Shown here: positions 41,129 through 64,000 of the stretch, in pieces | Position numbering within the stretch: the first letter of the stretch is position 1 | Layout: every line of letters begins with the position of its first letter | Source: Leptolyngbya iicbica LK | GTDB taxonomy: Bacteria; Cyanobacteriota; Cyanobacteriia; Phormidesmidales; Phormidesmidaceae | Assembly: GCF_004212215.1 (NCBI RefSeq) | Contig: NZ_QVFV01000002.1 | Span: 668,482-732,481 of the forward strand | Length of the DNA: 64,000 nucleotides | Direction: 5' to 3' | Notes under the pieces: generated by a model | What the model was told of the DNA's origin: nothing | Database searches by the model: none | Seen by the model: the letters and a program-made list of their open reading frames with translations, nothing else | Translations under genes and position numbers: made by a program

Positions 41129-41223
41129 AAAACGGCTCGCCAAAATGAGAGTGTCATTCAGCAATTACATAGCTTTCTAAATACCTTCATGTTGTTGATG
41201 ACAGTTGTTATTGGCCTCTATTG

Positions 41224-43417: not shown

Positions 43418-46400
43418 ATGAATATCTTTGACTTCCGCGATGGTCTGATTGGCGACTACAGCAAGTACGTTACCAGCTTCATTCAGATTCGAGACGAGCA
43501 CATCAAGCAACACGTCGAAGAGAAGCTCAAGTCGGGGGTTCTTTGGCCACAACCATTGATTCAACTCAATCCTTCCTTTGAACCGGGTGAAAGAGTTGAT
43601 CAATTAGTTGCTCGCGGAATTCTTCACGAAGAATGTTCTTCTATCTTTAGGGTCAAAAAAGCTCAAACAGGCGGCGAGGGAAATCCTCTCACGCTGCATA
43701 AGCATCAGCTCGATGCCGTGCTGACAGCTTCAGAAGGCCACAACTATGTCTTAACCACCGGCACCGGCTCAGGGAAAAGCTTATCCTACATCATCCCCAT
43801 CGTAGACCATGTGCTGAAGCGGGGTTCTGAAAAAGGCATTCAAGCCATCGTGGTCTACCCCATGAATGCCCTGGCCAATAGCCAGGCCGGAGAACTCCGA
43901 AAATTCTTACAGGATGGCTATCCCGAAGGTTCAGCCCCAGTTACCTTCGAGCGTTACACCGGACAAGAAAAAGAAGACGAACGGCAACAGATTCTCAACA
44001 ATCCCCCGGATATTCTGCTGACTAACTACGTCATGCTGGAGCTGATTTTGACCCGTCCTAAGGAGCGCAAGCTAATTGAAGCGGCTCAGGGACTGCAGTT
44101 TCTGGTGCTAGACGAACTCCACACCTATCGGGGTCGCCAGGGGGCAGATGTTGCCCTGCTGGTCAGGCGGGTGCGAGAACGCATGGCCGCCGATAGCCTT
44201 CAGTGTGTCGGTACTTCTGCCACCCTCGCCAGCGGCGGCACCTATGCAGAACAGCAAGTCGAGGTAGCGAAGGTCGCTACTCAGCTCTTTGGCACTACCG
44301 TCAAACCAGAGCACATCATTGGTGAAACCCTAAAACGGGCTTCTCCCGACCGAGATTTTCAAGATCCTGCCTTTATCCAGGCTTTGAAAGCTCGGATTAT
44401 CTATTCACCCACTCCCCTCTCCAGCGAGTATGACGCCTTCATCCAAGACCCCCTCTCTATTTGGATTGAGGGCATCTTTGGGGTAGAACCTGAGCCAGAA
44501 ACCGGGCGTCTGGTTCGGGCAAAGCCCCAAAGCCTTTTGGGTGACCAAGGAGCCGCTGAGTCTTTACGAAAGTTAATTGGTCTGCCCAAGGAACAAGGGC
44601 ATACGTGTATTGAGGCCATTAAACAAGGCTTACTGGTGGGTCACCAGGTCAAAAAAACTGAGACGGGCATCGCCCCCTTTGCTTTCCGGCTGCACCAATT
44701 CATCAGCAAAGGCGATACGGTTTATGCATCCTTACGCACCGAAGATGAGCGCCATATTACCCTTCAGGCCCAGCAGTTTGTGCCGGGCGATCGCAGCCGC
44801 ATTTTGCTGCCGCTGGTATTTTGCCGCGAGTGTGGTCAAGAGTATTACGCCGTCAGGCGCACCCATGATTTTGCGGTCGATCAGGCCAAGCTAGAACCCC
44901 GTGAGCTATCTGATACCCAAAACGACAACGTCAGCGAGTCTGGCTTTCTCTATCTCAATACCAGAAGACCCTGGCCGATCGATCCAGAAGCCATGCTGGA
45001 TTTACTGCCAGAAGACTGGATTGAGGAACATCCTACCCGAGGGCCACGGGTGCGCCAGTCTCGCAAAAAGCATTTGCCTGAACCCATGCACTTCAAAGCC
45101 GATGGGTTTATTGGGGAACCCGACTTATTAGGCCACTTTCTGCCTACTCCTTTTCGGTTCTGCCTGAACTGCGGTGTCTCCTACGGCAGCCGCCAGCGCT
45201 CCGACTTTGCGAAATTAGCGTCTCTAGGATCAGAAGGGCGGAGTACCGCAACGACAATCCTCACTCTCTCTTCAGTTCTGAAACTCAAGGGCTCTACCCT
45301 GACGGAAACTGCGAAGAAACTCCTCAGCTTTACCGATAACCGCCAGGATGCCTCGCTGCAGGCCGGGCATTTCAACGACTTCATTGAAGTGGGGCTCCTA
45401 CGGGCAGCCCTCTACAAAGCCGTTGAGCGAGCCAGTACAGACGGGCTCCGCCACGACGAACTGCCCCAACGGGTGTTCGATGCCCTCAATCTGCCTTTAG
45501 ATCTGTATGCCAGTGACTCAGCTGTAAAATACCAGGCCCTAAAAGATACCCAGCAGGCCCTTCGGGATGTACTGGGCTACCGGCTTTACCTCGACCTGCG
45601 TCGGGGATGGCGCATCACCTCCCCCAACCTGGAGCAGTGCGGCCTGTTAGAGATTCAGTACCTTTCTCTGGAAGATGTTTGCCAGGACAAAGACATTTGG
45701 CAGGCCTGCCATCCGGCTTTAGTCACTGCCGCTCCGGAAACCCGCGTGCAGGTGGCTAAAGTACTGCTCGACTTTATGCGACGGGAGCTGGCCATCAAGG
45801 TTGATTATTTAGATACTCGCTACCAGGAGCGCATCCAACAGCGCAGCTCTCAACGGCTGAAAGACCCCTGGGCGCTGGACGAAAACGAGACCCTGAACTA
45901 CGCCACGGTCCTATTTCCCCGTTCCTTTAAGCAAGGAGAAGATTTTGGGGGCAACGTTTTCCTGTCATCGAGGAGTGGCTATGGTCAGTACTTGCGGCGC
46001 ACCAGCACGTTCGACAACTTTGGCGAGAGGCTCAAGCTAGAGGATACGGACCAGATTATTCGGGGACTGCTGCAAGGGCTGAAAATCGCGGGCATTGTTG
46101 AAGAGGTACTCGCCCCGAAAAAGGATGGGGAGGTGCCGGGCTATCAACTGGTGGCTTCCGCTCTGCAGTGGACGGTGGGTGATGGAACTACTCCCTTCCA
46201 TGACCCCACTCGTGTGCCCCAGCTGCCAGAGGGCGGCAGCCGCACCAATGAATTCTTTGTTGAGTTCTATCGCAAAATCGCGGCCACGACTCAAGGTCTG
46301 GAAGCCCGTGAGCATACCGCCCAGGTCCCCTCCGATGAACGGGAAAAGCGGGAACAAGCTTTCCGCACCGGGGATCTGCCTATCCTTTACTGTTCTCCCA

Positions 46401-48970
46401 CCATGGAGCTAGGGGTAGACATTGCCGACCTCAACGTGGTCAACCTGAGAAATGTTCCCCCTACCCCTGCCAACTATGCCCAGCGTAGTGGCCGAGCCGG
46501 GCGCAGTGGCCAACCGGCCCTGGTGTTTGCCTATTGTTCAACGGGTAGCTCCCACGACCAGTACTTCTTCAAACGTCCCGATCGCATGGTAACGGGAGCC
46601 GTCACCCCGCCCCGATTGGATCTGAGCAACGAAGACTTAATTCGAGCCCACCTGCACGCAGTTTGGTTGGCGGAGGCAGATCTCAATTTAGGGTCATCGT
46701 TAAAAGATATTCTCCAGTTGGATTTGGTAGATGACGCTCCAACGTTGGAGCTCCAAGAAGAAGTTCAGGCAAAGTTGAATAATGTGGGAGCAAAAAAACG
46801 TGCGAAAAAACGGGCTCAGCGCATTCTGGATACTTTGCAAGCGGAGATGGATGACTCCAGCCTGTTCAATGACACGTGGCTGGACAATGTCTTCACCCAA
46901 ATTGCTCAACGATTTGAGAATACCTGCCAGCGCTGGCGAGACCTCTATCGGGCAGCCCTGGCGCAGTTCAATGTTCAGAACCGAATCATTCAGGATGCCT
47001 CTCGTCCGGCCAGAGATAAGGACCAGGCCAAACGGCTACGGCGAGAAGCGGAAGCTCAGCTGGAGCTGCTGACGGTTTCTGACAACCTGGCCCAATCAGA
47101 CTTCTACAGCTACCGCTATTTCGCCAGCGAAGGATTCTTGCCAGGCTATAACTTCCCCCGGTTACCCCTGTCGGCCTACATTCCGGCACGGCGAATGCGT
47201 CAGGGTCGGGAGGAGTACCTATCTCGTCCCCGATTCCTGGCCATATCCGAATTTGGTCCTCGTTCAGTGGTGTACCACGAGGGATCGAAGTATCTGATTA
47301 ATCGGGTCATTTTACCGGTGGAAGGAGACGAGGGCACCCTGTCATTGGGCGAAGTGAAGCCCTGTCCCCGCTGTGGCTATCTACATCCGGTCAATGACGG
47401 GGTCGGGCTGGATAAATGTGAACGCTGTACGGCAGATTTGAGTACGTCGTTGCGATCACTCTTCCGGCTGCAGAACGTCACCACCAAACGCCGCGACAAA
47501 ATCAATTCTGACGAAGAAGAACGTCTGCGCCTGGGCTACGACCTCTGTACGGGAGTTCGCTTCCCAGAGCGAGATGGGCATCCCTCCTACCAGGTCGCCA
47601 CGGTGAAACGGAAAGGCAAAGATCTGGCCAAGCTGACCTATGCCCAAAATGCAGAGCTATGGCGCATTAACCTGGGATGGGCTCGCCGCAAGAACAAGGA
47701 GCAGTTTGGCTTTGTGCTCGATATTGAACGGGGCTACTGGGCTAAGAACGAACAGGCGACCGAAGACGAGGATGTCTCCGATCCCCTATCCCCGCGCACG
47801 TCCAGGGTGATTCCCTATGTGCAGGACAATCGCAACAGTCTGCTGTTTGAACCAAAGGGTTCCCTCAGACCAGAGCAAATGGCCTCATTACAGGCGGCCC
47901 TCAAACAGGCCATCCAGGTAACTTACCAGCTTGAAGATAATGAACTGGCTGCGGAACCCTTGCCAAACCGCGATGATCGACGGCTGATTCTGTTCTACGA
48001 ATCGGCTGAGGGTGGGGCCGGTGTTTTGAAGCGGCTGTTGAATGACCCAACGGCGCTGGCTTCTGTGGCTAAAGCGGCGTTGGAAGTTTGTCACTTTGAC
48101 CCTGAAACGGGTGAGGACCTGGGCCATGGACCGCAGTCGGAGGAAAACTGCGAAGCCGCCTGCTATGACTGCTTGATGAACTACAGCAACCAGCGAGACC
48201 ATGCCCTGCTGGATCGTCAGAGAATTCGCGATGTTCTGATGCAGCTAACGGAAGCTGAGGTGCTGGCTTCCCCATCGTCGAAGTCGCGGACTGAGCATTT
48301 GGATGGATTGCTGAATAAGGCTGACTCAGGCCTGGAGCGGGAGTGGTTGCAGTACCTCCAGGAGCGGGGATATCGCTTGCCTTCGGAGGCTCAGGTGTTG
48401 ATTCCAGACTGTGGAACTCGGCCTGATTTTCTATATCGAGATAACGCCACGGTGATTTATGTAGATGGTCCTCATCATGATTTTCCGGATCGACACCAGC
48501 GGGACCAGAAGCAGGCTGACTGTTTGGAGGATTTTGGTTACACCGTGCTTCGATTTGACTACCGAGAAGATTGGGTGGAAATCCTTAAGAGATATCCCGG
48601 TGTGTTTGGTGAAGGATCTGTCAGTTCTAATACTGCTAAGAACAATGGGAACAACAAACGTGACGGGCATGTTGACCTTGATCTCTTCGATGCCCGCTGG
48701 CGGCCCATCATGGAACAACTGGCTCAGGAACAGGATTGGCAGGTAGAAGCTGGTGGGGACGTAGCCGATGGTGGGCGTGTCCTTGGTGAGTACCTGGCTG
48801 AGGTTTCAGTCAACGGTTGTTCTGTACGTCTAGTGGACGCTGAGCAACCAGACCTTGAGACTGTCGCAGAACTCTTGAAGGCTCAGGGCTTTGCCGTTTT
48901 AGTCGCCCAATCTGAAGATCCCCAACTTATCCAAAACCTTAAAGCGAGCTTTCAGGGAGACCCGCCATGA
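43418..48970 (+). CDS. Giant SF2 helicase with DUF1998 and nuclease-like C-terminus
   Basis: A 1,850-residue first gene of the defence operon. SF2 helicase motifs: HKHQLDAV, Walker A TGTGSGKS (114-121), DELH (232-235), CVGTSATL (about 262) and [10 protein letters not shown] (about 1021-1030). Cys clusters (CRECG, CLNCG, CPRCG...CERC) and the DUF1998 region [11 protein letters not shown]...[12 protein letters not shown] (about 1535-1585) follow. A Vsr/DUF559-like nuclease segment is at about 1640-1735 ([20 protein letters not shown]). The last 100 residues (1751-1850) are a module also found in the next protein. The chain resembles DruE of Druantia and MrfA, or DrmA plus DrmB of DISARM joined together. 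The stop overlaps the next ATG (ATGA). Defence is inferred from the operon. Confidence 0.88.
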
Positions 48971-51531
48971 CGACGATGACGACCTTTGACAGCACCAAAG
49001 AAGGGCTTGCTGACCTGCTCAGAAGCATTCGCAAAGGCGACATTCAGCTCCCTGATTTTCAGCGTGGATGGGTTTGGGACGACGAACATGTTCGGAGCCT
49101 GTTGGCTAGCATCTCCCTGTCTTACCCGATTGGTGCGGTCATGATGCTTCAGACTGGCAATGAAGATGTGAAATTTAAGGCCAGACCCGTTGAAGGCGTG
49201 CAGCTCTCCTCACCGGTTGAGGCCGATCGCCTCATTCTTGATGGCCAGCAGCGTTTAACCTCCTTGTTTCAGGCACTTAACGCAGAACGCCCAGTGCTGA
49301 CCCGCGATTTACGCGGGCGACCGATTTACCGCTGGTATTACCTTGATATGGAAGCAGCATTGAATCCCAATGTGGAACGGGAAGATGCTGTTGTTAGCCT
49401 GCCCGACACTCGGCAAGTCAAGAATTTTCGGGGGGAAGTGATTGAAGATTACTCCAGTCCGGGGAAAGAACATGAACGGGGCTTATTCCCTATCAGCCAG
49501 GTCTTTGACTGTTCCAATTGGCAGGAGGGACACCAGGAATATTGGGACTACGACAAAGACAAAATCAAACTCTTCAGCCAGTTCAACAAGGAAATTATCA
49601 AACGCTTTGAGCAGTATCAGGTACCTGTGATTTCCCTCGGAAAGGAAACACCCAAGGAAGCAGTCTGCCAGGTCTTTGAGAAGGTAAACACAGGCGGGGT
49701 TTCCCTAACTGTCTTTGAACTATTGACGGCGACCTTTGCCGCTGAAGACTATTTGCTGCGCCAAGACTGGGCCGATCGCAAGGCTCGCTTAACAGAATTT
49801 CGGATTCTGGAATATATCGAGAGTACTGACTTCTTGCAGTCGGTGACGTTGGTCGCTTCGTTACAGCGGCAGAAAGCCGCGATCACATCCGGCACTCTCC
49901 CCGAAAAGGCCCCTGGCATCAGCTGTAAGCGACGGGATATCTTGCGGTTGACGCTAGAGGAATATCAAACCTGGGCAAATCCCGTTACCCGAGGATTTCA
50001 AGAGGCGGCCAAGCTACTCCACGGGCAAAGGATTTTTACTGCCCGAGACATTCCCTACAAAACCCAGCTTGTTCCCCTAGCAGCCATCTTCACGGTGTTG
50101 GGCGAAAAAGCCCTCAACCACGGAGTGAGGGAAAAATTGATCCGCTGGTACTGGTGTGGGGTTTTTGGAGAGCTTTACGGAAGTGCCATCGAAAGTCGTC
50201 TTGCTAAGGATTTGCCGGAGGTTTTGGCCTGGGTAGAAGGAGCCCCAGAGCCAGACACGGTGGCGGTCGCGAACTTTATTCCTAGCCGACTGCTCGGCTT
50301 ACGAACCCGAAACAGTGCAGCTTATAAAGGCATTTATGCGCTGTTAATGAAGTATGGTGCCCCCGATTTTCGTTCCGGCATTCCTATCAATGAGCAGGTT
50401 TACTTTGACGAGAAAATCGACATTCACCATATCTTTCCTCAGGACTGGTGCCGCAAAGCTGGTCTAGATGCCAAACGCTACGACAGCGTTATCAACAAAA
50501 CGCCCCTTTCTGCAGGGACTAACAAACGGATCAGCAACAAACCTCCCAGCAAATATCTTGCCACCTTACAAAAAAGTGCGGAAATTTCTGAGGAAAGGAT
50601 GGATGCCATCCTAACAGAGCATCTGATTGCTTCAGATGCCCTCAGGGCTAACGATTTTGAAAGTTTTTTCAGCGCTCGAAAAGCTGCATTGTTAGACCGC
50701 ATTGGTCAAGCCATAGGTAAAACTATTGTGCGAGACGAGAGTGGTTCTGTGGACTATGACCTCTTCTCTTCTCAGTGGCATGCTTTCCTGCAAGCGCTTT
50801 CCAGGCTTGAGGGTATCGCTATTGAAGCCGGTGGCGATGTGGAAGCCAGTGGGGTAGTCGTCGGCGCTTACCTGGCAGAAGTAAGGCAGAACGATAAAGT
50901 TCTACATCTGGTAGACAGCCAGGAACCATCGGCAGGGACCATTAAGGCAGCTTTAGAGCAAACGGGGACAAGGGTTGTGCTGATTGATAGCAATCAACCG
51001 GAGGGTGGATTGGCAAGCATCATGGTTGCTCTACAAGAGCAGACGCAGTTGGCCGACCCTATTGAAAAGCCTGAAGTTGGCGAACCTGACGATTCTGACA
51101 AAGAACCTCCCGTTGGGTTTCATCCAGATTGCATTGAGCGGGTTTCTCAAGTTTTGGGGCTATCTCTGCTTTCAAAATCACGAACCGCATATGTGACTGA
51201 AGATGGCTCAACGGCTGTTGTTTGCAGCATTTCTAAAACTCACGAAAACAACGGGACGCCCTCCTACTGGTTTGCGTTTCACCCCTCTCAAAAAGAATTT
51301 TTGGAGAACTTCGACCAGGGGTACGTGGCTCTAGGCTGTGGCTTACCTGAACAAACCATCCTGGTGCCCTTTCAAGATTTGTCTTCCTGGTTAGACGACT
51401 TTTGGACGACAGAAAAAGATGACCGCATGTACTGGCATATTCGCATTCATAAGGAAGGCGAGGCACTACGGCTAGATCGCAAACAAGGCATGGGCCGTCT
51501 CGACATTACCCACCATCTGCTAAATAGCTGA
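48967..51531 (+). CDS. DUF262/HNH (GmrSD-like) protein with shared C-terminal module
   Basis: An 854-residue protein. The N-terminal DUF262 domain (about 8-230) has IQLPDFQRGWVW and LILDGQQRLTS, the nucleotide-binding/NTPase-like motif of GmrS and related restriction proteins. An HNH/DUF1524 nuclease follows (about 480-540; DIHHIFPQDW...NKTPLS...NKRISNK). Residues about 594-695 (VDYDLF, IEAGGDVEASGVVVGAYLAE) repeat the last module of the upstream helicase. Residues about 710-854 form a further unrecognised domain (SYWFAFHPSQKEFLE...VALGCG). GmrSD enzymes cut modified phage DNA; a similar role is possible. It overlaps the helicase gene by 4 nt. Confidence 0.85.
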   Translation: MTTMTTFDSTKEGLADLLRSIRKGDIQLPDFQRGWVWDDEHVRSLLASISLSYPIGAVMMLQTGNEDVKFKARPVEGVQLSSPVEADRLILDGQQRLTSLFQALNAERPVLTRDLRGRPIYRWYYLDMEAALNPNVEREDAVVSLPDTRQVKNFRGEVIEDYSSPGKEHERGLFPISQVFDCSNWQEGHQEYWDYDKDKIKLFSQFNKEIIKRFEQYQVPVISLGKETPKEAVCQVFEKVNTGGVSLTVFELLTATFAAEDYLLRQDWADRKARLTEFRILEYIESTDFLQSVTLVASLQRQKAAITSGTLPEKAPGISCKRRDILRLTLEEYQTWANPVTRGFQEAAKLLHGQRIFTARDIPYKTQLVPLAAIFTVLGEKALNHGVREKLIRWYWCGVFGELYGSAIESRLAKDLPEVLAWVEGAPEPDTVAVANFIPSRLLGLRTRNSAAYKGIYALLMKYGAPDFRSGIPINEQVYFDEKIDIHHIFPQDWCRKAGLDAKRYDSVINKTPLSAGTNKRISNKPPSKYLATLQKSAEISEERMDAILTEHLIASDALRANDFESFFSARKAALLDRIGQAIGKTIVRDESGSVDYDLFSSQWHAFLQALSRLEGIAIEAGGDVEASGVVVGAYLAEVRQNDKVLHLVDSQEPSAGTIKAALEQTGTRVVLIDSNQPEGGLASIMVALQEQTQLADPIEKPEVGEPDDSDKEPPVGFHPDCIERVSQVLGLSLLSKSRTAYVTEDGSTAVVCSISKTHENNGTPSYWFAFHPSQKEFLENFDQGYVALGCGLPEQTILVPFQDLSSWLDDFWTTEKDDRMYWHIRIHKEGEALRLDRKQGMGRLDITHHLLNS

Positions 51532-51542
51532 GGAGGAACACT

Positions 51543-53600: not shown

Positions 53601-56428
53601 AGTTTGCTGTAGGTGCCCTAGTCAAAGCTCGCGATCGCGAGTGGGTCGTCCTCCCCGACTCCACCGACGATATGCTCATCCTTCGCCCCCTGGGTGGCAC
53701 CGAAGATGAAGTTACCGGCATCTTTCTCCCTCTGGAGCCCGTCGAACCTGCCCAGTTCGAGCTACCCGACCCCAAAAAACTCGGTGACTACCGCTCCTGC
53801 CGCATGTTGCGCGATGCCGTGCGCCTCGGTTTCCGTTCCAGTGCTGGCCCCTTCCGGTCCTTTGCCAAACTAGCCGTTGAGCCCCGTCCCTATCAGCTCG
53901 TACCGCTACTTATGGCCCTAAAGCTAGAGCCCGTGCGCCTGCTCATTGCCGACGACGTAGGTATCGGCAAAACCGTCGAAGCCGCCCTCGTCGCCAAAGA
54001 ACTGATCGATCGCGGCGAAGTCGATCGCCTCGCTATCCTCTGCCCGCCCCACCTGGCCGAACAGTGGCAGTTAGAGCTTCAGAGCAAATTCCATATCGAT
54101 GCCGAACTGGTGCTGCCCAGCACCGCCACCCGCCTAGAGCGCAACTGCCGCTTGGGGCAGTCACTCTTTGACCTTTATCCCTACGTCATTGTTTCGACCG
54201 ACTTCATTAAGTCAGAGCACCGGCGAGATGAATTTCTGCGCACCTGTCCCGAACTGGTGATTGTAGACGAAGCCCATACATGTGCCTTTGCCGGGGAAGG
54301 TCGAAGCGGTAAGCATCAGCGGCACCAACTCATCAAAGGTTTAGCCGATGCGCCTGATCGCCATCTCATTTTGGTGACAGCCACTCCCCATAGCGGTAAA
54401 GAAGCCGCCTTCCGGTCGCTGCTGGCTTTGCTTAATCCTGACTTTGCCGATTTGCCTGAAGAGCTGGGCGGCAAAGACAACGAAGCTATCCGCCGCCGGG
54501 TGGCGGCCCACTTTGTCCAGCGCCGCCGGGGCGACATTCGCACTTACCTGGATGCCGATACCCCCTTTCCCACTCGCTTAGAGGCCGAGGAGACCTATGC
54601 GCTATCCCCCGAGTACAAAAAGCTGTTTGACCGCATTCTGAACTACGCTCGCGAAACCGTTCAAGATCCCGATGGGGGCAACCGTCACCGACAGCGGGTG
54701 CGGTGGTGGTCGGCCTTGGGGCTGCTGCGATCTCTTGCCTCTAGCCCCGCTGCTGCTGCCACCACCCTGCGCAACCGAGCCGACACCCTCGACACCCAAA
54801 CCCCCGAAGAAGCCGATGAAATCGGTCGCCGGGCGGTAATGGATTTGATGGAGGATGACGCCAAAGAAGGGCTTGATGTGGTTCCTGGTAGCGATATCGG
54901 CGAACTCACCACCGATGTCCAACGCCACCGCGATCGCATACTGCGCATGGCCCGCGAAGCAGAGGGGTTGAAGGGCAAGAAAGACGCCAAACTCCAAAAA
55001 ATCATCGCCCTGGCCAAAGACTTCCTCAAAGATGGATTCCAAACCATTATCTTCTGCCGGTTTATCCCCACCGCTGAGTATGTGGCAGACGAGCTAAGAA
55101 ATACCTTGCGCGGGGTTGAGGTGGTCGCTGTTACCGGTACCCTGCCACCGGCTGAGCGGGAAGAACGGGTAGAGCAGTTATCCCAGTCGCCCCAGCGGGT
55201 GCTGGTCTGTACCGATTGCTTGAGTGAGGGCATCAACCTTCAAGCCCACTTCAACGCCGTTATTCACTACGACCTGTCGTGGAACCCCACTCGCCACGAG
55301 CAGCGTGAAGGCCGAGTAGACCGCTACGGCCAACCCCAAGATAAAGTGCGGGTGCTGACCTATTACGGCACTGACAACCAGATTGACGGCATTGTTCTGA
55401 ATGTTCTGATTCGCAAGCACCGCTCTATCCGCAGTTCTTTGGGCATTTCGGTGCCCGTGCCCGTCGATACTGACCAACTGGTTGAAGCCATCTTCGAAGG
55501 GCTACTGCTGCGAGAACAGTCTTCTAACGTCTCTGACCAGCTTTCTCTCTTTGACGAAGACTTCTTCAAACCACAAAAGGATCAATTTTTCGGCCAGTGG
55601 GAAGCTGCGTCGGAACGAGAGAAGCGATCGCGCACCATGTTTGCTCAAGAAACCATCAAGGTCGAAGACGTGGTTCGAGAGCTGCAAGCAATTCGTTCAG
55701 CCATTGGTTCTAGCGTCGATGTCGCCGCTTTTACCGAAGCCGCCTTCAAAGTTCATCAAGCGGTCGTCAGTGAAACACCGACCAAGGCATTAGCGTTCGA
55801 CCTGTCAGAAACGCCCCAGGCTTTGAAGGATGCTGTTGGCGGGCAGGAATCCTTCCAGGCTCGGTTCGAACTCCCTATTCAAGATGGTCAGCTTTACCTG
55901 AACCGGACCCATCCCATCGTGGAAGGTCTGGCAACCCACGTAATGGATACAGCTCTGGATCCCATGGTGGACAGTGTGGCCCGTCGCTGTGGGGTGATTC
56001 GGACTAATCAGGTAAGCCGCCGCACTACGCTACTCCTGACCCGTTTTCGTTTCCACATCATTGCCAAGCAGGGAGACGAGGAAAACCCGCTCCTGGCAGA
56101 AGACTGCCAAATACTAGCCTTTACGGGCTCTCCGGAAAAGGCTGAATGGCTTGAGCCTGGTCAGGCAGAGAAGCTCCTGACGGCCACTCCGGACGGCAAC
56201 ATTAGTGCCGACCAGGCCACAACGTTTCTACAGAAAGTGATCGATCAATTCGACCATCTCAGTCCCCACCTTGAATCTGTAGCCCAGCAGCGAGGGAATG
56301 ATTTACTTGAGGCTCATCGCCGAGTCCGCAGCGCAGCCAAACTCAAGGGTGTTCGCTACCGAGTGGAGCCACAACTCCCCCCTGATGTTTTAGGTATCTA
56401 TATGTTCATGCCAGTCCCGAAAACTTAG
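53597..56428 (+). CDS. SNF2-family helicase, DrmD-like
   Basis: About 943 residues from ATG 53597. An N-terminal barrel-like segment (FAVGALVKARDREWVV) precedes the SNF2/SF2 core: Walker A IADDVGIGKTVEA (about 116-128), DEAH (VIVDEAHTC, about 220), TATPHSG, and motif VI HEQREGRVDRYGQ (about 566). The C-terminal 300 residues contain a region seen in bacterial SNF2 proteins of defence loci. DISARM class 1 has a SNF2 protein, DrmD, next to a DrmMI methylase, the same neighbour as here. The start is fixed by the 4-nt overlap with the preceding stop (ATGA); an upstream in-frame start at 53537 is unlikely. Confidence 0.85.
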   Translation: MKFAVGALVKARDREWVVLPDSTDDMLILRPLGGTEDEVTGIFLPLEPVEPAQFELPDPKKLGDYRSCRMLRDAVRLGFRSSAGPFRSFAKLAVEPRPYQLVPLLMALKLEPVRLLIADDVGIGKTVEAALVAKELIDRGEVDRLAILCPPHLAEQWQLELQSKFHIDAELVLPSTATRLERNCRLGQSLFDLYPYVIVSTDFIKSEHRRDEFLRTCPELVIVDEAHTCAFAGEGRSGKHQRHQLIKGLADAPDRHLILVTATPHSGKEAAFRSLLALLNPDFADLPEELGGKDNEAIRRRVAAHFVQRRRGDIRTYLDADTPFPTRLEAEETYALSPEYKKLFDRILNYARETVQDPDGGNRHRQRVRWWSALGLLRSLASSPAAAATTLRNRADTLDTQTPEEADEIGRRAVMDLMEDDAKEGLDVVPGSDIGELTTDVQRHRDRILRMAREAEGLKGKKDAKLQKIIALAKDFLKDGFQTIIFCRFIPTAEYVADELRNTLRGVEVVAVTGTLPPAEREERVEQLSQSPQRVLVCTDCLSEGINLQAHFNAVIHYDLSWNPTRHEQREGRVDRYGQPQDKVRVLTYYGTDNQIDGIVLNVLIRKHRSIRSSLGISVPVPVDTDQLVEAIFEGLLLREQSSNVSDQLSLFDEDFFKPQKDQFFGQWEAASEREKRSRTMFAQETIKVEDVVRELQAIRSAIGSSVDVAAFTEAAFKVHQAVVSETPTKALAFDLSETPQALKDAVGGQESFQARFELPIQDGQLYLNRTHPIVEGLATHVMDTALDPMVDSVARRCGVIRTNQVSRRTTLLLTRFRFHIIAKQGDEENPLLAEDCQILAFTGSPEKAEWLEPGQAEKLLTATPDGNISADQATTFLQKVIDQFDHLSPHLESVAQQRGNDLLEAHRRVRSAAKLKGVRYRVEPQLPPDVLGIYMFMPVPKT

Positions 56429-56444
56429 CGTCTAAAGTTTGACA

Positions 56445-59400
56445 ATGCGCCATTCCAGGAACATCTTTACCACTGTCCGTTCAGAAGGAGCCATTCTCCC
56501 CAGTGACCTGCTCCAGCGGATTGTCAGTGGAGATAAAGGCCTGGATGGGTTGGATGCTAGGTCATTCCACCTGCTGGAAGGCGATCGCATCAACGAAGCC
56601 ATCAACCGCTCCTGGAGCAGGCTGCGCGGTGCCTGGGTCAACTTCCAACATGCCCTGACCCAACTCTCCTCAGACGATGCCGCTACCCGCCTGACCCGTG
56701 AAAAATTTCTACTCCCGCTATTTCAAGAGTTAGGCTATGGTCGCCTGCCCCCAGCCTCAGCGATCGAGATCAGTGGCAAACGCTATGCCATCTCCCACGG
56801 TTGGCACCACACGCCTATCCATCTCGTTGGCTACCGGGTAGACCTGGATAAACGCTCCGCCGGGATTGCTGGTGCGGCCAAAAGTAGCCCCCATAGCCTG
56901 GTGCAAGAGCTGCTCAATCGTTCCAACCAGCATCTCTGGGCTTTCCTTGCCAATGGCCGTAGACTTCGCATCCTGCGCGATAACGCTAGCTTGACCCGAC
57001 AAGCCTACGTCGAGTTTGACCTGGAAGCCATGATGGCTGGTGAAGTCTACGCTGATTTCGTACTGCTCTGGCTGCTGTGTCATCAATCGCGGGTAGAATC
57101 AGAGTCGCCTAGCAGGTGCTGGTTGGAACGATGGTCTCAGGTTGCGGACTCCCAAGGCACGCGGGCACTGGAGCAACTCCGCAAAGGCGTAGAAGTTGCC
57201 ATCTCGACTTTAGGGCAGAGATTCCTCTCCCACCCTGCGAATCAGGAGCTGCGTCGGCTATTGCAAACTGGAGCACTGTCAGCTCAGGAATATAACCACC
57301 AGCTCAGGCGACTGGTTTATCGTCTGCTGTTCCTATTTGTTGTTGAAGACCGGGACGTTTTACTAGACCCCGCCGCTGCACCAGAAGCTAAGGAATGCTA
57401 TCAGCGCTACTACTCCGTCAATCGTCTGCGCTCCCTGGCCGATCGCCATCGCGGAACCCGTCACCACGACCTTTATCTGGGGCTTCAGGTGGTCATGCAG
57501 CATCTAGGGGGCGAAGGCTGCCCTGCGCTGGGGCTGCCAGCTTTAGGCAGTTTCCTGTGGTCGAATGAGGCCACTCCTGCGCTTGATGGTTGTCAACTCG
57601 CCAATTCAGCCCTACTGGAAACCGTTCGGGCACTGGCGTTTATTTGCGATCGCAATGGCAGACGCCCCGTAGACTACAAAAATCTCCAATCCCGCGAGCT
57701 GGGCAGCATTTACGAATCCTTACTAGAGCTGCATCCCTACCTCAACATTGATGCCAAAACTTTCAAGCTTGAGACCGTCGAAGGCAATCGCCGCAAGACC
57801 ACCGGCTGCTACTATACCCCCGAAAGCCTGGTTCAAACCCTGCTCCGAACCACTCTGAATCCGGTTTTAGACAGTGCTACACGTCAGCCAGACCCAGAAG
57901 CCGCCATTCTCAACCTTAAAATTTGCGACACCGCCTGTGGTAGCGGCCACTTTTTAACCGCTGCGGCCCAACGGATGGCCAAGCAGTTAGCTACCCTTCG
58001 CACCGGGGACGAAGAGCCAGGACTCGATGCCGTCCGTACTGCTCTACGCCAGGTCATTAGCCGCTGCATCTATGGGGTAGACGTGAACCGCATGGCGGTA
58101 GAGCTGTGTAAGGTGGCCCTATGGATGGAGGCTATGGAACCGGGGAAACCGCTGCCCTTCCTGGAACACCATATTCAATGGGGGAATTCTCTGATTGGGG
58201 CCACTCCTGCTCTGATGGCCAGGGGCATTCCCGATGATGTCTTTAAGCCCATTCGAGGGGACGACAAAGCCCTCTGCCGTGACCTCAAACGCCAGAACAA
58301 GCGGGAACGCGAGCAGGCCCAGCTTACCCTGGTTGATCCTTCCACACGCCCCTGGGAATGGTTGGAGGATATGGCCGCCTATGCGCCAGAACACCAACCC
58401 TGGCAACAGCTGGAAGAACTGGCCGCCCAGATGGCCGAGCTAGACGGCATCCCCGATGAAACCATCGCCCAGGTCCAGCTCAAGCAGCGGAAATACCAAG
58501 AACTCCTTGCCTCCACCGAGTACCGCTTCAGTCGATTTCGAGCTGATAGCTGGTGTGCCGCTTTTGTTTGGCGCAAAACGCCAGGGTTCGACTACGCCTT
58601 GACGGAGGAGGTCTTCCGCAAGATTAAGCAGAATCCCTACAATGCGGCTGATTGGCTCTGGGGAGAGGTGGAAAACCTCCAGGCTCAGTACCATTTCTTC
58701 CATTGGCATGTTGCCTTTGCCCATATTTTCCGTGTCCCCAAGCAGGCCGAAGCGGTTGAACACGAGCAGGCCGGGTGGTCCGGCGGCTTTGATGTGGAGC
58801 TGGGTAATACTCCCTGGGAGCGCATCAAAGTCCAGGAGCGAGAGTGGTTTGCCGCCTATCGCCCCGATATTTCCAATTCTGTGAATGCGACGCAACGAAA
58901 GCGGAAAATCCAGGCCCTCAAGACGGAAGATCCCGAACTCTATGGTCAGTTCATGGAGCGCTGCCGTCAATCTGATGGAGAAAGCCACTTCATCCACCAT
59001 TCGGGCAAGTATCCCCTCTGCGGTCGGGGCGACATCAATACCTTTGCCGTCTTTGCCGAAATCAACCGCCTACTGCTGCAGCCCAACGGAAGGCTCGGCT
59101 GCATTGTGCCTTCCAGCATGGCCACTGCCGATACCACCAAATATTTCTTCCAGGATCTGATGGCGTCGAAGGCCTTAGTCAGCTACTACGACTTTGAGAA
59201 CCGGGCCAAAATCTTCTTCCCTGCCGTAGACTCCCGGATGCGGTTTGCCCTGATGACCCTCACCGGCAGCCAACAGCCCGTAGAGCAGGCCGACTTTGTG
59301 TTCTTTGCCCACCGCATCGAAGACCTGGCCCAGAGCGATCGCCACATCCATCTCACCCTCGACGACATCAACCTGCTCAACCCCGGCACCAAGACCTGTC

Positions 59401-60452
59401 CCACCTTTCGATCGCAACGGGAATTTGCTATTGCCAGGCAGGTTTACCAAACGATTCCCGTGCTGGGACAGTCAGATCACCAGGGCGATCGCTGGCAGCT
59501 TCGCATCACCCAGGGACTCTTCAGCCAGACAGCCGATATCGGTCTGCTCCAGCCTGCTACTGCCATTGACTCCGACCAGACAGATCTCATCCGCTGCTAC
59601 GAAGCCCGCATGATCAGCAGCTTTAACCATCGGGAAGGCTCAGCCGGTATTACCGACAAAAACACGTTCCGCACTGGCGTCAGCATTGCCATTTCCGATG
59701 AAGAGCGTACCGATCCCCACTTCCTAGCCCAGTCCCGCTACTGGGCATCTCCCCAAGACACGGCTCAGCGCCTTCCCAAGGACTATCCTTACCAGTGGCT
59801 GATGGGGTTTAAGGATGTCACCAGCGCCACCAACACCCGCACCATGATTGCCTGTGTTCTGCCGAAAACAGCGGTATTGTGCAGCATCCGAGTGGTGTTT
59901 TTAGAAGATTACCGAGACGCCACTCCCGGCGGCCTGCTCAGCCTGCTCGCTAACTGGAACAGCTTTTGCTTTGACTTTTTCTGTCGCCAAAGCACCCCTG
60001 GCAATCACCTGTCTGACTACATCGTTCGCCAACTGCCGACCCTGCCACCTTCCACCTATCAGCAGCCCTGTCCCTGGGATGCCGTCCTCACCCTGGAAGA
60101 CTGGATTCTACCTCGGGTTCTAGAGTTGACTTATACCGCTTGGGATTTGGAGGGATTTGCAAAAGACTGTGGCTACGAAGCCGCACCCTTCCCCTGGAAT
60201 CTCGATCGTCGCTCATGGCTCCAGGCTGAACTTGACGCAGCGTTCTTCCACCTCTACAGCATCCAGCGAGAGGATGTGGACTTCATGCTGGAGAGCTTTC
60301 CTATTGTGAAGCGTAAAGATCAACAAAAGCTGGGTTGCTTCCAAACTAAGTCCCGCATCCTGCACATCTATGATTGGCTAACAACAGCCATACAGTCCGG
60401 GAGTGCTTACCACAGGAATCTCGAGGCATCCATGAAAGACCACTTTCCCTGA
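56445..60452 (+). CDS. Adenine-specific DNA methylase, Eco57I/DrmMI-like (copy 1, altered motifs)
   Basis: A 1,335-residue class II N6-adenine methyltransferase-like protein. Motif I (about 493-503) reads CDTACGSGHF, where the family has DPACGSG; motif IV (about 787) reads GNTPWER, where NPPW is usual. Both changes are Pro to Thr. Later blocks (GRLGCIVPSSMATADTTKYF) are normal, and the C-terminal half should contain the target-recognition region. ATG 56445 is chosen by alignment with copy 2 (NIFTTVRSEGAILPSDLLQR in both). It lies 16 nt after the SNF2 gene. In DISARM or BREX it would mark host DNA; the altered motif IV raises the question whether it is active. Confidence 0.85.
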   Translation: MRHSRNIFTTVRSEGAILPSDLLQRIVSGDKGLDGLDARSFHLLEGDRINEAINRSWSRLRGAWVNFQHALTQLSSDDAATRLTREKFLLPLFQELGYGRLPPASAIEISGKRYAISHGWHHTPIHLVGYRVDLDKRSAGIAGAAKSSPHSLVQELLNRSNQHLWAFLANGRRLRILRDNASLTRQAYVEFDLEAMMAGEVYADFVLLWLLCHQSRVESESPSRCWLERWSQVADSQGTRALEQLRKGVEVAISTLGQRFLSHPANQELRRLLQTGALSAQEYNHQLRRLVYRLLFLFVVEDRDVLLDPAAAPEAKECYQRYYSVNRLRSLADRHRGTRHHDLYLGLQVVMQHLGGEGCPALGLPALGSFLWSNEATPALDGCQLANSALLETVRALAFICDRNGRRPVDYKNLQSRELGSIYESLLELHPYLNIDAKTFKLETVEGNRRKTTGCYYTPESLVQTLLRTTLNPVLDSATRQPDPEAAILNLKICDTACGSGHFLTAAAQRMAKQLATLRTGDEEPGLDAVRTALRQVISRCIYGVDVNRMAVELCKVALWMEAMEPGKPLPFLEHHIQWGNSLIGATPALMARGIPDDVFKPIRGDDKALCRDLKRQNKREREQAQLTLVDPSTRPWEWLEDMAAYAPEHQPWQQLEELAAQMAELDGIPDETIAQVQLKQRKYQELLASTEYRFSRFRADSWCAAFVWRKTPGFDYALTEEVFRKIKQNPYNAADWLWGEVENLQAQYHFFHWHVAFAHIFRVPKQAEAVEHEQAGWSGGFDVELGNTPWERIKVQEREWFAAYRPDISNSVNATQRKRKIQALKTEDPELYGQFMERCRQSDGESHFIHHSGKYPLCGRGDINTFAVFAEINRLLLQPNGRLGCIVPSSMATADTTKYFFQDLMASKALVSYYDFENRAKIFFPAVDSRMRFALMTLTGSQQPVEQADFVFFAHRIEDLAQSDRHIHLTLDDINLLNPGTKTCPTFRSQREFAIARQVYQTIPVLGQSDHQGDRWQLRITQGLFSQTADIGLLQPATAIDSDQTDLIRCYEARMISSFNHREGSAGITDKNTFRTGVSIAISDEERTDPHFLAQSRYWASPQDTAQRLPKDYPYQWLMGFKDVTSATNTRTMIACVLPKTAVLCSIRVVFLEDYRDATPGGLLSLLANWNSFCFDFFCRQSTPGNHLSDYIVRQLPTLPPSTYQQPCPWDAVLTLEDWILPRVLELTYTAWDLEGFAKDCGYEAAPFPWNLDRRSWLQAELDAAFFHLYSIQREDVDFMLESFPIVKRKDQQKLGCFQTKSRILHIYDWLTTAIQSGSAYHRNLEASMKDHFP

Positions 60453-60509
60453 GCCTCGCAATCGATCTACGGCCATTCTGATGATTTCGCATCCTATAAT
60501 AACTCTGCT

Positions 60510-63500
60510 ATGAAAGTTCGCGCCAAAAATATTTTTACGACGGTTCGTTCAGAGGGGGCTATCCTTCCCAGTGATCTGCTTCAGCGGGTTGTAGATAGTG
60601 AAAAAAGTCTCAAGGGCCTGACTCCGGCTGCCTATCACCTGCTAGAAGGGGAGAAGCTCAACGAAGCCATCAACCGTTCCTGGAGTCGTTTGCGTGGGGC
60701 CTGGGCTAGCTTTCAAGGGGCGTTGGAAAGGCTGCCTGAGTCAGACGCGGCGACCAAAGTGACCCGCGATCGCATCCTTTTGCCGCTTTTCCAGGAGCTG
60801 GGCTACGGACGGCTAACCACCACCCGCGCCATTGAGATTGAGGGCAAGGCTTACCCCATCTCCCACCTCTGGCAAAACACGCCAATTCATCTGGTGGGCT
60901 ACCGGGTAGATCTGGATAAGCGCACCGCTGGCGTTGCCGGAGCCGCCCGCAGCAGCCCCCACAGTCTGGTGCAGGAGTTTTTGAACCGCTCGGATGATCA
61001 CCTTTGGGCGTTTGTTTCCAATGGGCGACGGCTGCGAATTCTGCGGGACAATGCCAGCCTCACTCGCCAGGCTTATGTAGAGTTTGACCTGGAAGCCATG
61101 ATGGCCGGGGAAGTCTATGCCGATTTTGTGCTGCTGTGGCTGCTGTGTCACCAGTCGCGGGTAGAAGCGGAAAAGCCGGAACAGTGCTGGCTGGAGGTCT
61201 GGTCGAAAACGGCTGACGACCAAGGCAAGCGAGCTTTGGATGCTCTACGGGATGGGGTGGAAGCCGCGATCGCATCCCTGGGCCAGGGCTTTTTGACCCA
61301 CTCGGCTAACCGTACCCTGCGGCACAAGCTCCAGTCTGGCGAGCTGCCCACCCAGGACTACTACCGCCAACTACTGCGGCTGGTCTATCGCCTGCTGTTT
61401 CTGTTCGTTGCCGAGGACCGGGAACTACTGCTCGACCCCAACGCGGAACCTGCCGCGAAGGATCGCTACACCCTCTATTACTCCACTGCTCGCCTGCGCA
61501 CCCTGGCAGAAAAGCGTCGGGGCACCCGCCACAGCGACCTGTTCCATGGTCTGCGTCTGGTAATGGAGAAGCTTAGCAGCCGGTCTGGTTGCCCTGAGCT
61601 AGCTCTACCCGCTCTGAATGGATTTCTATGGTCAGAAGAAGCAACCAGTGATCTAGAAGTCTGTCAGATTGCCAATTTAGACTTACTCAAAGCGGTCAGG
61701 GCTTTAGCCTTCATCACCGATCAGCATGGGCGACGGGCGGTTGATTATAAGAACCTACAGTCTGAGGAATTAGGGAGTGTCTATGAGTCTCTGCTAGAAC
61801 TACAGCCCGAACTCAATATCAGTGCTGGAACGTTTGAGCTGAAAACGGTAGGTGGGAATGAGCGTAAAACAACCGGCAGCTATTACACCCCAGATAGCTT
61901 AGTTCAGTGCTTACTGGATTCAGCATTAGATCCTGTGTTAGATGAGGCCGTTCGACAGCCAGATCCCGAAGCCGCCATCCTGGCGTTAAGGGTTTGCGAC
62001 CCCGCATGTGGCAGTGGTCATTTTCTGATTGCGGCTGCCCACCGTATTGCTAAACGACTAGCCGCAGTGAGAACTGGGGATGAAGAACCTGCCCCCGAAG
62101 CTAGATATACAGCCATTCGCGATGTCATTGGTTACTGCATCTATGGCGTTGACATTAACCCCATGGCAGTCGAACTCTGCAAAGTGGCTCTCTGCATGGA
62201 AGCTGTTGAACCAGGAAGACCCCTGCCATTCATAGAACACCATATTCGCCAAGGAAACTCGCTCCTCAATGCGACACCAAGACTGATAGGTAGAGGAATC
62301 CCAGATGAGGCGTTTAAGCCGATTGAAGGGGATGACAAGTCTGTTTGCAGTCAATTTAGGAAACGGAATAAGAAGGAGCGTGAAAAGCAGCAGTTAACTC
62401 TAGTAGACCCTGCTCAGCGTCCATGGGAGTGGTTAGAGGACGTCACCGTCTATGCCCCAGAACTTCAGCCTTGGAAACAGCTGGAAGAGATGGCAGCCCG
62501 AATGGAGGAATTGGATGACTTACCAGGCGATACTCTCGCAGACATTTATCTGAAGCAGCAGAAACATAGAGAACTGCTTGAGTCAACTGAATATAAATTC
62601 ACCTCATTTAGAGCGGATGTCTGGTGCTCAGCGTTTGTAATGAGGAAAGTGAGTGACTTCGAGTATTTGATGACTGAAGAAGTTTTTCGCAAAATAAAAC
62701 AAAATCCTCTAAATGCACCGAAATGGTTGGCGAATGAAGTTGCGAAGCTGAAGGCTCAATATCATTTCTTTCATTGGCATGTTGCCTTTCCTCACATCTT
62801 TCAGGTACCGAAGCACGAAGAAGAGGCCCATCAACAGGAAATGGGCTGGAGTGGGGGATTTGATGTGGTGCTAGGAAATCCTCCTTGGGAAAAGCTCCAA
62901 ACCGAAGAGTTACAGTTTTTCGCAGCAAGGAATCCTGCAATTGCAAGCTTAAGAGGAGCAATAAGAAAATTAGCAATTAAGCGGTTGCAAGAAGTAGACC
63001 CTTCCTTAGCATCTGCTTGGGCTCAACAAAGAAGATTTGATGCGGCCATGATTGGATTCATCCGAAACTCTAAATCTTATCCTTTAACAGGAGTGGGGAA
63101 ATTTAATACCTTCGCGCTTTTTTCAGAACAAAACAGAAAAATCGCTTCTGAACAAGGCCGGATTGGCTGCATTGTACCTTCTGGAATTGCTACCGATGAT
63201 ACAACTAAACTGTTTTTTCAGGATCTTATTAAAAAATCAGCTTTGATTAGTCTATACGACTTTGAAAATAGAGAGGAGATATTTACTGGCGTACATAGAA
63301 GTTACAAATTTTGTCTGTTAACCCTTCATGGATCGGTGAGGAATCCTGAGGACGAAACTGAAATGGTATTTTTTGCCCTTCAAGTGGAAGACATACGTAA
63401 TCCAGAAAAGAATTTCACCCTTAGCACCAAGGATTTTTTAAACCTCAATCCGAACACTCTAACTTGCCCTACCTTTAGATTCCAAAAAGATGCTGAAATA

Positions 63501-64000
63501 AACAAATCAATTTATCGTAAGATCCCTGTATTGTTAAACGAATCCTCAGATGTCAAAAACTTTTACAAGCCGAAAGTTTGGAGGCTTCTGAACACAACAG
63601 ATGACAGCAGCAATTTCGTAAAACTAGAAGATGGCTATATCAAAGAAGGCATCATTCCTGTCATTGAAGCAAAAATGATCCACCAGTTCGATCACAGATT
63701 TTCAATTTATGAGAGCGATAAAAATTCGGAAGTCAAGACTAGAGAAACGTCTATCCTTGAAAAGGAGAACCCAGATTTTTTGTCGACAGCTAGACACTAC
63801 ATCAAAGACTTCTTTTTTAGGAAAAGAATCGCAGAAGAATATTGTGATAAAGGATGGTTTTTTACTGCGAGAAATATAGCTCGCTCCACTGACGAAAGAA
63901 CTGTTATATCTGCCATCCTTCCAAAGGTTGCTAGTTGTGAGATGACACCTTACATAGAAGTAGGAGCGGGGATAGAATCAGCAACCTTTTTGTGTGGTGT
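60510..64000 (+). CDS. Adenine-specific DNA methylase, copy 2, 3' end outside window
   Basis: An open frame from ATG 60510 to the window end (1,163 codons) encodes a tandem paralogue of the preceding methylase. The N-terminal 850 residues align closely (for example AINRSWSRLRGAW, SSPHSLVQEFLNRS). Motif I is canonical (CDPACGSGHF, about 496) and motif IV is canonical (GNPPWEK, about 788). After about 62,500 the gene becomes much AT-richer and diverges from copy 1, though blocks such as GRIGCIVPSGIATDDTTKLF remain. Likely recognises a different sequence. It is the only copy with intact catalytic motifs in view. Spacing to copy 1 is 57 nt. Confidence 0.88.
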   Translation, partial: MKVRAKNIFTTVRSEGAILPSDLLQRVVDSEKSLKGLTPAAYHLLEGEKLNEAINRSWSRLRGAWASFQGALERLPESDAATKVTRDRILLPLFQELGYGRLTTTRAIEIEGKAYPISHLWQNTPIHLVGYRVDLDKRTAGVAGAARSSPHSLVQEFLNRSDDHLWAFVSNGRRLRILRDNASLTRQAYVEFDLEAMMAGEVYADFVLLWLLCHQSRVEAEKPEQCWLEVWSKTADDQGKRALDALRDGVEAAIASLGQGFLTHSANRTLRHKLQSGELPTQDYYRQLLRLVYRLLFLFVAEDRELLLDPNAEPAAKDRYTLYYSTARLRTLAEKRRGTRHSDLFHGLRLVMEKLSSRSGCPELALPALNGFLWSEEATSDLEVCQIANLDLLKAVRALAFITDQHGRRAVDYKNLQSEELGSVYESLLELQPELNISAGTFELKTVGGNERKTTGSYYTPDSLVQCLLDSALDPVLDEAVRQPDPEAAILALRVCDPACGSGHFLIAAAHRIAKRLAAVRTGDEEPAPEARYTAIRDVIGYCIYGVDINPMAVELCKVALCMEAVEPGRPLPFIEHHIRQGNSLLNATPRLIGRGIPDEAFKPIEGDDKSVCSQFRKRNKKEREKQQLTLVDPAQRPWEWLEDVTVYAPELQPWKQLEEMAARMEELDDLPGDTLADIYLKQQKHRELLESTEYKFTSFRADVWCSAFVMRKVSDFEYLMTEEVFRKIKQNPLNAPKWLANEVAKLKAQYHFFHWHVAFPHIFQVPKHEEEAHQQEMGWSGGFDVVLGNPPWEKLQTEELQFFAARNPAIASLRGAIRKLAIKRLQEVDPSLASAWAQQRRFDAAMIGFIRNSKSYPLTGVGKFNTFALFSEQNRKIASEQGRIGCIVPSGIATDDTTKLFFQDLIKKSALISLYDFENREEIFTGVHRSYKFCLLTLHGSVRNPEDETEMVFFALQVEDIRNPEKNFTLSTKDFLNLNPNTLTCPTFRFQKDAEINKSIYRKIPVLLNESSDVKNFYKPKVWRLLNTTDDSSNFVKLEDGYIKEGIIPVIEAKMIHQFDHRFSIYESDKNSEVKTRETSILEKENPDFLSTARHYIKDFFFRKRIAEEYCDKGWFFTARNIARSTDERTVISAILPKVASCEMTPYIEVGAGIESATFLCG

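Follow-up and report, generated by a model that had tools for sequence, protein, structure and literature searches.

The stretch of DNA analysed here (the window: 64,000 nucleotides, positions 668,482 to 732,481 of contig NZ_QVFV01000002.1 of Leptolyngbya iicbica LK, assembly GCF_004212215.1) carries, at window positions 43418-64000, a six-gene operon whose core (C, A, B) is, judged by protein families and tree position, that of the ARMADA type I anti-phage system. A gene for a DUF262-HNH protein (G) and a gene for a RelE-UvrD protein (D) lie between armC and armA, and the methylase gene armB is duplicated in tandem, which gives the order C-G-D-A-B-B. A module of ~105 residues, without a Pfam match, is common to ArmC and G; this is a new observation, and the module is associated with one lineage of D. 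The reading that we prefer, and to which we give an even chance, is that G and D were inserted into an ARMADA type I operon, that armB was duplicated, and that the module couples one RelE-UvrD effector to two sensors.

The six reading frames are open, all lie on the + strand and fill the interval (43418-48970, 48967-51531, 51543-53600, 53597-56428, 56445-60452 and 60510-64000, window numbering). Their junctions are, in order, a 4-nucleotide overlap, 11 nucleotides, a 4-nucleotide overlap, 16 nucleotides and 57 nucleotides, with the ATG starts taken. The original prediction, made from the letters alone, had described a co-directional set of six genes with 4-nucleotide overlaps or gaps under 60 nucleotides, and coordinates and junctions agree with it. 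Pfam also agrees with the products that it named (a helicase with DUF1998, a DUF262/HNH protein, a UvrD-type helicase, a SNF2 helicase and two methylases), with the HNH half (GmrSD_C) falling below the cut-off. The UvrD assignment of the third protein stood, and the RelE-like domain attributed to it shows weak sequence similarity (YoeB at E=0.006 in a search with a 25-row profile of the N-terminus that includes one row, L230, which is out of register and not N-terminal). What had been missed were the DUF559/Vsr-type domain at the end of ArmC, the module common to the first two proteins and the truncation of the sixth gene by the window edge; its full protein has 1334 residues and reaches window-equivalent position 64514 (contig position 732995).

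ARMADA, which received its name in a preprint of 2025 (Bell et al., PMC12458937), is a family related to DISARM. Its parts are a BrxHII-like ArmA, a PglX-like ArmB, a YprA-like ArmC with a fused Vsr nuclease and a RelE-GajB-like ArmD; type I generally has the order C-A-B, with A-B-C in many cyanobacteria and archaea, and type II has strictly A-B-C-D (PMC12458937). The window shares with type I a YprA-family superfamily 2 helicase with fused DUF1998 and Vsr-type nuclease, a BrxHII/SNF2 helicase, a PglX-like methylase and the tree position. ArmC (43418..48970, +; 1850 residues; DruE-like in PADLOC, ARMADA type I in the tree) comprises DEAD (residues 95-271), Helicase_C (953-1031), MZB/DUF1998 (1491-1586) and DUF559/Vsr-type nuclease (1670-1715) domains, all above Pfam cut-offs. 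ArmA (53597..56428, +; 943 residues from an ATG overlapping the D stop) is a BrxHII/SNF2-type helicase according to PADLOC, Pfam and the tree, and the PglX/Eco57I-like methylases ArmB1 (56445..60452, +) and ArmB2 (60510..64000, +, truncated by the window) were recognised by Pfam and motifs. The window differs from type I in the DUF262-HNH and RelE-UvrD proteins between C and A, in the second methylase and in the ArmC module. With type II it has the RelE-UvrD (ArmD) partner in common, but its gene order is not A-B-C-D, its C, A and B fall outside the type II clades, and its D belongs to a separate lineage.

The trees of C, A and B, which are quick searches with support from the Shimodaira-Hasegawa-like approximate likelihood ratio test (SH-aLRT) only and in which rows received the label 'type I' from their gene order, are concordant and place the window proteins in type I, apart from the type II systems of E. 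coli, Microvirga and Cylindrospermopsis. Within type I, the window ArmC groups with those of Deinococcus, Nocardioides and Rhodococcus (enclosing sets with 99-100% SH-aLRT), and the order C-A-B, with genes overlapping or abutting, was found on plasmids of Deinococcus radiophilus, Nocardioides, Rhodococcus, Roseomonas and Sphingomonas. The other cyanobacterial type I systems mostly fall into a separate subclade, where the order, wherever it is readable, is A-B-C. The type II anchor, an E. coli plasmid with A-B-C-D, is sound, since all eight residues mutated in the preprint lie on the expected motifs with the same numbers. The ArmC trees hold 16 of the 27 cyanobacterial genomes with ArmC; the other 11 are broken or partial (G056, G340, G380, G330, G016, G101, G153) or were not added (G048, G051, G054, G231), and their loci were still scanned for the module. 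L054, with a very long branch, was excluded from the second ArmC tree.

To see whether the set recurs, 386 cyanobacterial genomes were searched for C, for G and for D, 59 relatives for D, and plasmids for all three. ArmC is present in 27 of the 386 genomes, own included (E up to 1e-60), and in 68 plasmid records, of which gene order was read in 10 and one further record is unannotated; pattern searches for D gave 61 loci in the genome collection and 14 in viral contigs. Among the loci read, neither the complete six-gene order nor a second C-G-D-A-B was seen outside the window. The set with added DUF262 and UvrD-RelE genes, which the original prediction had called unusual, thus occurs in exactly this form nowhere else among them; C-A-B, the core order, recurs across phyla, and the full order was seen in the window alone.

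The module lies at the C-terminus of ArmC behind a low-complexity linker (residues 1745-1850; 48650..48967, +), and a second copy, recognised by sequence comparison, model and fold comparison, lies inside G (residues 589-694; 50731..51048, +). The two copies are 33% identical over 100 columns (E 1.7e-12, 7e-14 to 3e-13). The plasmid ArmC matches listed (50 of 68) stop by residue 1750 and the 17 plasmid G matches by residue 611. Queries with the module and with the G tail found no match in 72,556 plasmids (E up to 0.01) and, by sequence in the PDB, only matches with E >0.05; a search for the module in viral contigs gave nothing. With the C-terminal part of G as the query, only two of the 386 cyanobacterial genomes, the own one and G183, yielded the module, and G133 yielded the tail; a weak match in G278 (E 5e-4, a frame with 5 stops) was dropped unread.

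In G183 the module forms the end of a YprA helicase immediately followed by a D protein 53% identical to the window D, the closest of the 386-genome sample. Four further loci with module-bearing ArmC (G394b, G409, G422 and G423) were reached through relatives of D (50-52% identical). When 24,509 frames from 244 loci were searched by hmmsearch without filters, the five cyanobacterial copies and the window copies scored E <1e-31 and nothing else scored below 0.9, with a profile built from these same copies. A D protein at least ~50% identical to that of the window occurs in 8 loci, window included; 6 of them have an ArmC-type helicase, and all 6 helicases end in the module, which is found on none of the 34 other ArmC rows. 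Among 59 relatives and 263 genomes of the phylum, profile searches independent of D gave strong matches only in 5 and 2, respectively (own in both), all of them genomes with this D lineage. Three weak matches (G129, G085 and G239; E 0.0002-0.007) were judged on inspection to be due to chance: one is a protein of 281 residues next to a frame resembling a sigma factor, and two are frames resembling P-type ATPases.

The five other helicases (G183, G394b, G409, G422 and G423) resemble the window system in the D lineage and the C-terminal module but differ from it in that they form a deep clade of their own, outside types I and II (100% SH-aLRT), and in that G394b and G423 have the order A-x-B-(x)-C-D. 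This clade (L175, L231, L235, L237, L238), unnamed in the preprint sections covered (PMC12458937), is possibly a third ARMADA type. Since the module occurs on G as well as on two ArmC clades that are far apart, it has moved more than once. In the sections of the preprint covered, a module common to ArmC and another protein is unmentioned (PMC12458937), and the literature searches made found no text joining ARMADA with DUF262/GmrSD. As side observations on these loci, Mokosh-like MkoA and MkoB genes stand immediately before ArmC in G183, and in G422 genes of MkoA/MkoB-like sizes, compared by size only, lie between B and C.

An AlphaFold2 model built from the two window copies has a predicted local distance difference test (pLDDT) score of 58 in the first ten residues and 67-83 in the rest of the module, with an overall mean of 51.9. 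In structure comparison the module resembles NGO0050 (3hrl), VRR_NUC, Hjc, Bax1 and I-Bth0305I (Z 5.7-7.4), and the top 22 rows, RecU included, are all nucleases (Z 5.3-7.4, within the range below 8 that the tool calls common), which we take to be of the PD-(D/E)XK type. The module appears PD-(D/E)XK-like in a model of moderate confidence. Only W17, G35, D37, V44, G46 and L76 are invariant in a 7-row alignment; the putative ExK glutamate position is occupied by E, Q or R, and the lysine after it is absent. As the ExK motif is not kept, the module is probably an inactive nuclease fold. Type II ArmC often carries added inactivated nuclease domains, Vsr-type among them, behind the Vsr domain (PMC12458937), and kinship of the module with these tails is only suggestive.

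The D protein (51543..53600, +) combines a putatively RelE/YoeB-like N-terminus (residues ~1-107) with a UvrD/GajB-type helicase (224-685) and is ArmD-like according to Pfam, profile, model and trees. Its model (mean pLDDT 83.2) matches D. radiodurans UvrD with Z 37.7 and a root mean square deviation of 3.3 over 434 residues; the fold list is filled by UvrD-type structures, and the lack of RelE there is no evidence against RelE. The relatives of D split into a lineage associated with restriction-modification, the type II ArmD proteins and a third lineage that holds the window D. In the first of these, mostly from Pseudomonadota, the order is Res-(G)-Mod-D, with type III-like Res-Mod before RelE-UvrD (L037-L097, e.g. 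L042, L050, L053, L057); 27 and 11 of its 53 D rows were used in two trees. Two trees led us to reject the view that D is simply an ArmD of type II.

The G protein (48967..51531, +; 854 residues) resembles GmrSD and BrxU, the latter located in a BREX island, in having a DUF262 domain with DGQQR (at residue 92) and an HNH-type motif, HHIFP (487), in one chain; Pfam gives 120.5 bits for GmrSD_N and 16.4 bits for GmrSD_C, below the cut-off of 23. The parts of PMC10952713 covered report that type IV GmrSD/BrxU enzymes cleave modified DNA. The window G differs from its relatives of 41-49% identity, which stop near residue 600, by the module and by a C-terminal tail domain (residues ~704-854; 51076..51528, +). 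One relative of this tail was found, a 271-residue protein in G133 (L206:363-1178; 37% identity), and a search for it in viral contigs and phages gave nothing; the tail part of the first AlphaFold2 model was too poor in quality for use.

Among the loci read, G is inside the operon in 2 of the 27 ArmC genomes, the window and G219 (C-G-A-B), and near an ARMADA operon in G374 (divergent) and G380 (a fragment); another locus of G374 (L176) is type II-like and has the order C-D-G. The loci of G219 and G289 (L098, L101) are 95% identical in armC and 93% in armA and the first part of armB, and between these conserved blocks lie 1974 base pairs with G in G219 and 51 base pairs keeping the first five codons of G in G289. 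This remnant between intact neighbours indicates a natural loss of G, and G is optional in the system. A G gene (43-46% identity) stands upstream of D in 8 of the 61 D loci of named genomes, several of them on short contigs. A different operon, ptuXYZ, joins DUF262 with a YoeB-related RNase (Gerdes 2025, PMC11980606, in the part covered), and the parts covered of PMC13192584 and PMC12904381 merely mention ARMADA. As a separate observation, a frame of G380 next to an ARMADA type I locus (L133:2424-3248) begins with the first ~109 residues of a G-like protein (61% identity) and continues, in frame, as the C-terminal end of a protein that looks Cas12k-like by eye.

The two methylases are sisters in the tree and 58% identical over its columns, and armB is a tandem duplication. 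Their identity falls from 70% over the first 430 residues to 65% over the core and 40% over the C-terminal part, and is lowest, 24-27%, at 1000-1200. ArmB2 has intact motifs (DPACGSG, NPPW), and ArmB1 has Thr for Pro in both motif I (DTACGSG) and motif IV (NTPW), as the only one of 23 B rows. In E. coli ARMADA II the change N971A in NPPW abolished protection (PMC12458937). ArmB1 may thus be inactive or altered in activity. Between G219 and G289, the identity of ArmB is 94-99% as far as residue 700, 87% over 701-800 and 23-38% beyond 800; between G374 and G125 (L107, L109) it is 91-99% as far as residue 600, 35-63% over 600-1200 and 35-51% over 800-1200. The replacement of the C-terminal region in otherwise near-identical proteins suggests that ArmB swaps its target recognition part, so that an exchange of this part seems to occur in the family. 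The region of greatest divergence between ArmB1 and ArmB2 is the one replaced between G219 and G289, and ArmB1 probably adds a second DNA specificity.

E. coli ARMADA II defends directly rather than by abortive infection, and all four of its genes are required (PMC12458937). In the window system, ArmB would read the DNA sequence and mark host DNA, and would also be required for defence as in E. coli ARMADA II. ArmA and ArmC would translocate on incoming unmarked DNA and unwind it, and the Vsr-type nuclease of ArmC would cut it, while G, as a type IV-like nuclease driven by nucleoside triphosphates, may attack phage DNA with modified bases. The module on ArmC and G would serve for docking or control and bring D to one protein or the other, one effector thus serving two sensors; this role is proposed because of the association of module and D (6/6 vs 0/34). 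ArmB1 would act as a specificity or partner subunit with a second DNA specificity, which is more likely than an independent methylase because its catalytic motifs are altered. A methylation-type system and a type IV-type nuclease in one packed gene set would be a possible answer to phages that escape through DNA modification, and the shared module suggests a plug-in joining of defence parts. A broader proposal, which we hold only tentatively, is that the module is a transferable docking tag recruiting the RelE-UvrD effector to varied sensors and that the module-bearing cyanobacterial clade is a third ARMADA type. If true, defence systems could share and swap an effector by exchanging one small domain. 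The presence of the module in two neighbouring proteins, tied to one D lineage, offers a concrete and cheap binding test of how ARMADA parts interact.

Several points weigh against this role of the module. Its model rests on a two-row alignment, Foldseek found no significant match for it (best E 0.13), the Z values are common ones, and hhalign connects it only weakly with the ArmC tail of type II (probability 13.7%, E=0.002). Since the module profile was built from the copies already found, only the absence of the module elsewhere is informative, and the five other carriers form one clade, so the independent events are few. Two D-A-B loci, G394a and G420, have D proteins 61-63% identical to that of the window (L229-L230, L233-L234) without ArmC in the fetched flanks and without the module; D can therefore do without the module, and a strict need is disfavoured. 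The module could instead aid DNA binding or stability, and G and D, being sporadic, may be passengers. These points lead to the alternative in which G and D are independent defence genes that landed in an ARMADA type I core and the module is a DNA-binding or folding domain with no link to D. The scatter of G (in the operon in two ArmC genomes, deleted in G289), the occurrence of D relatives in restriction-modification loci and in D-A-B loci without ArmC, and the fact that PD-(D/E)XK folds often bind DNA all speak for it. We regard it as possible rather than probable, because it leaves the 6/6 vs 0/34 association, which spans two distant ArmC clades and G, to be accounted for.

The other alternatives concern what the operon is, and membership in DISARM, Druantia or Dpd was rejected on PADLOC and NCBIfam scores. 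The original prediction saw a match to DISARM class 1, and its relatedness stands: a SNF2 helicase, a PglX-like methylase and a YprA-type helicase are shared, and DrmD, DrmMI and DrmA models do score on the operon proteins, DrmMI in PADLOC only and without a displayed cut-off. Membership fails on cut-offs and gene structure, as the SNF2 protein reaches 333.7 bits against the DrmD cut-off of 610 (NCBIfam) and the ArmC helicase fits DruE models (339 bits) far above DrmA (54 bits). DrmA and DrmB, thought to be merged here, are separate genes in DISARM, and the one-chain helicase-DUF1998 with a C-terminal Vsr-type nuclease is the normal ARMADA form (PMC12458937). DrmC had rightly been reported as not seen: Pfam gives no phospholipase D domain in the six proteins, no DrmC is among the best 25 PADLOC rows per protein, and two helicase models named after phospholipase D match only the helicase part of ArmA. 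A true DISARM class 1 system with DrmA-DrmB fused and DrmC lost is thus very improbable. Even less credit goes to a Dpd-type system, which would follow from the PADLOC naming of the SNF2 protein as DpdE (PDLC02853, 898 bits, nearly full-length), as the NCBIfam DpdE model gives 195 bits against a cut-off of 500 and the protein groups with ARMADA ArmA in a tree that is without true DpdE. A decaying, non-functional cluster would fit the altered motifs of ArmB1 and the split cas12k downstream, but six frames open over ~21 kb with Walker A and B, DGQQR, HNH and NPPW (ArmB2) present make it unlikely. The PDLC02853 cluster seems to be ArmA-like, and its DpdE label on ArmA (window 53597-56428) is a likely source of wrong annotation.

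The operon lies on a contig of 1.57 Mb, and the sole 16S gene found sits on a different contig. Upstream are a TrwC-type relaxase gene and an actin-like gene (ALP_N/FcmB-like), within window 37554-40268 and 41221-42357, which point to a mobile or plasmid-derived region; heavy-metal ATPase and multicopper oxidase genes lie farther upstream. Downstream, CRISPR repeats begin ~2 kb after armB2. At contig ~735075-755159 (L005:7076-19965; L006) there are three 39-nucleotide CRISPR repeats, a cas12k whose two frames have a run of N between them, a dndE gene that has PAPS-reductase and SMC-like genes as neighbours, and a gene for a TniB/TnsC-type ATPase; together they probably make up a CRISPR transposon of type V-K that carries dnd genes as cargo.

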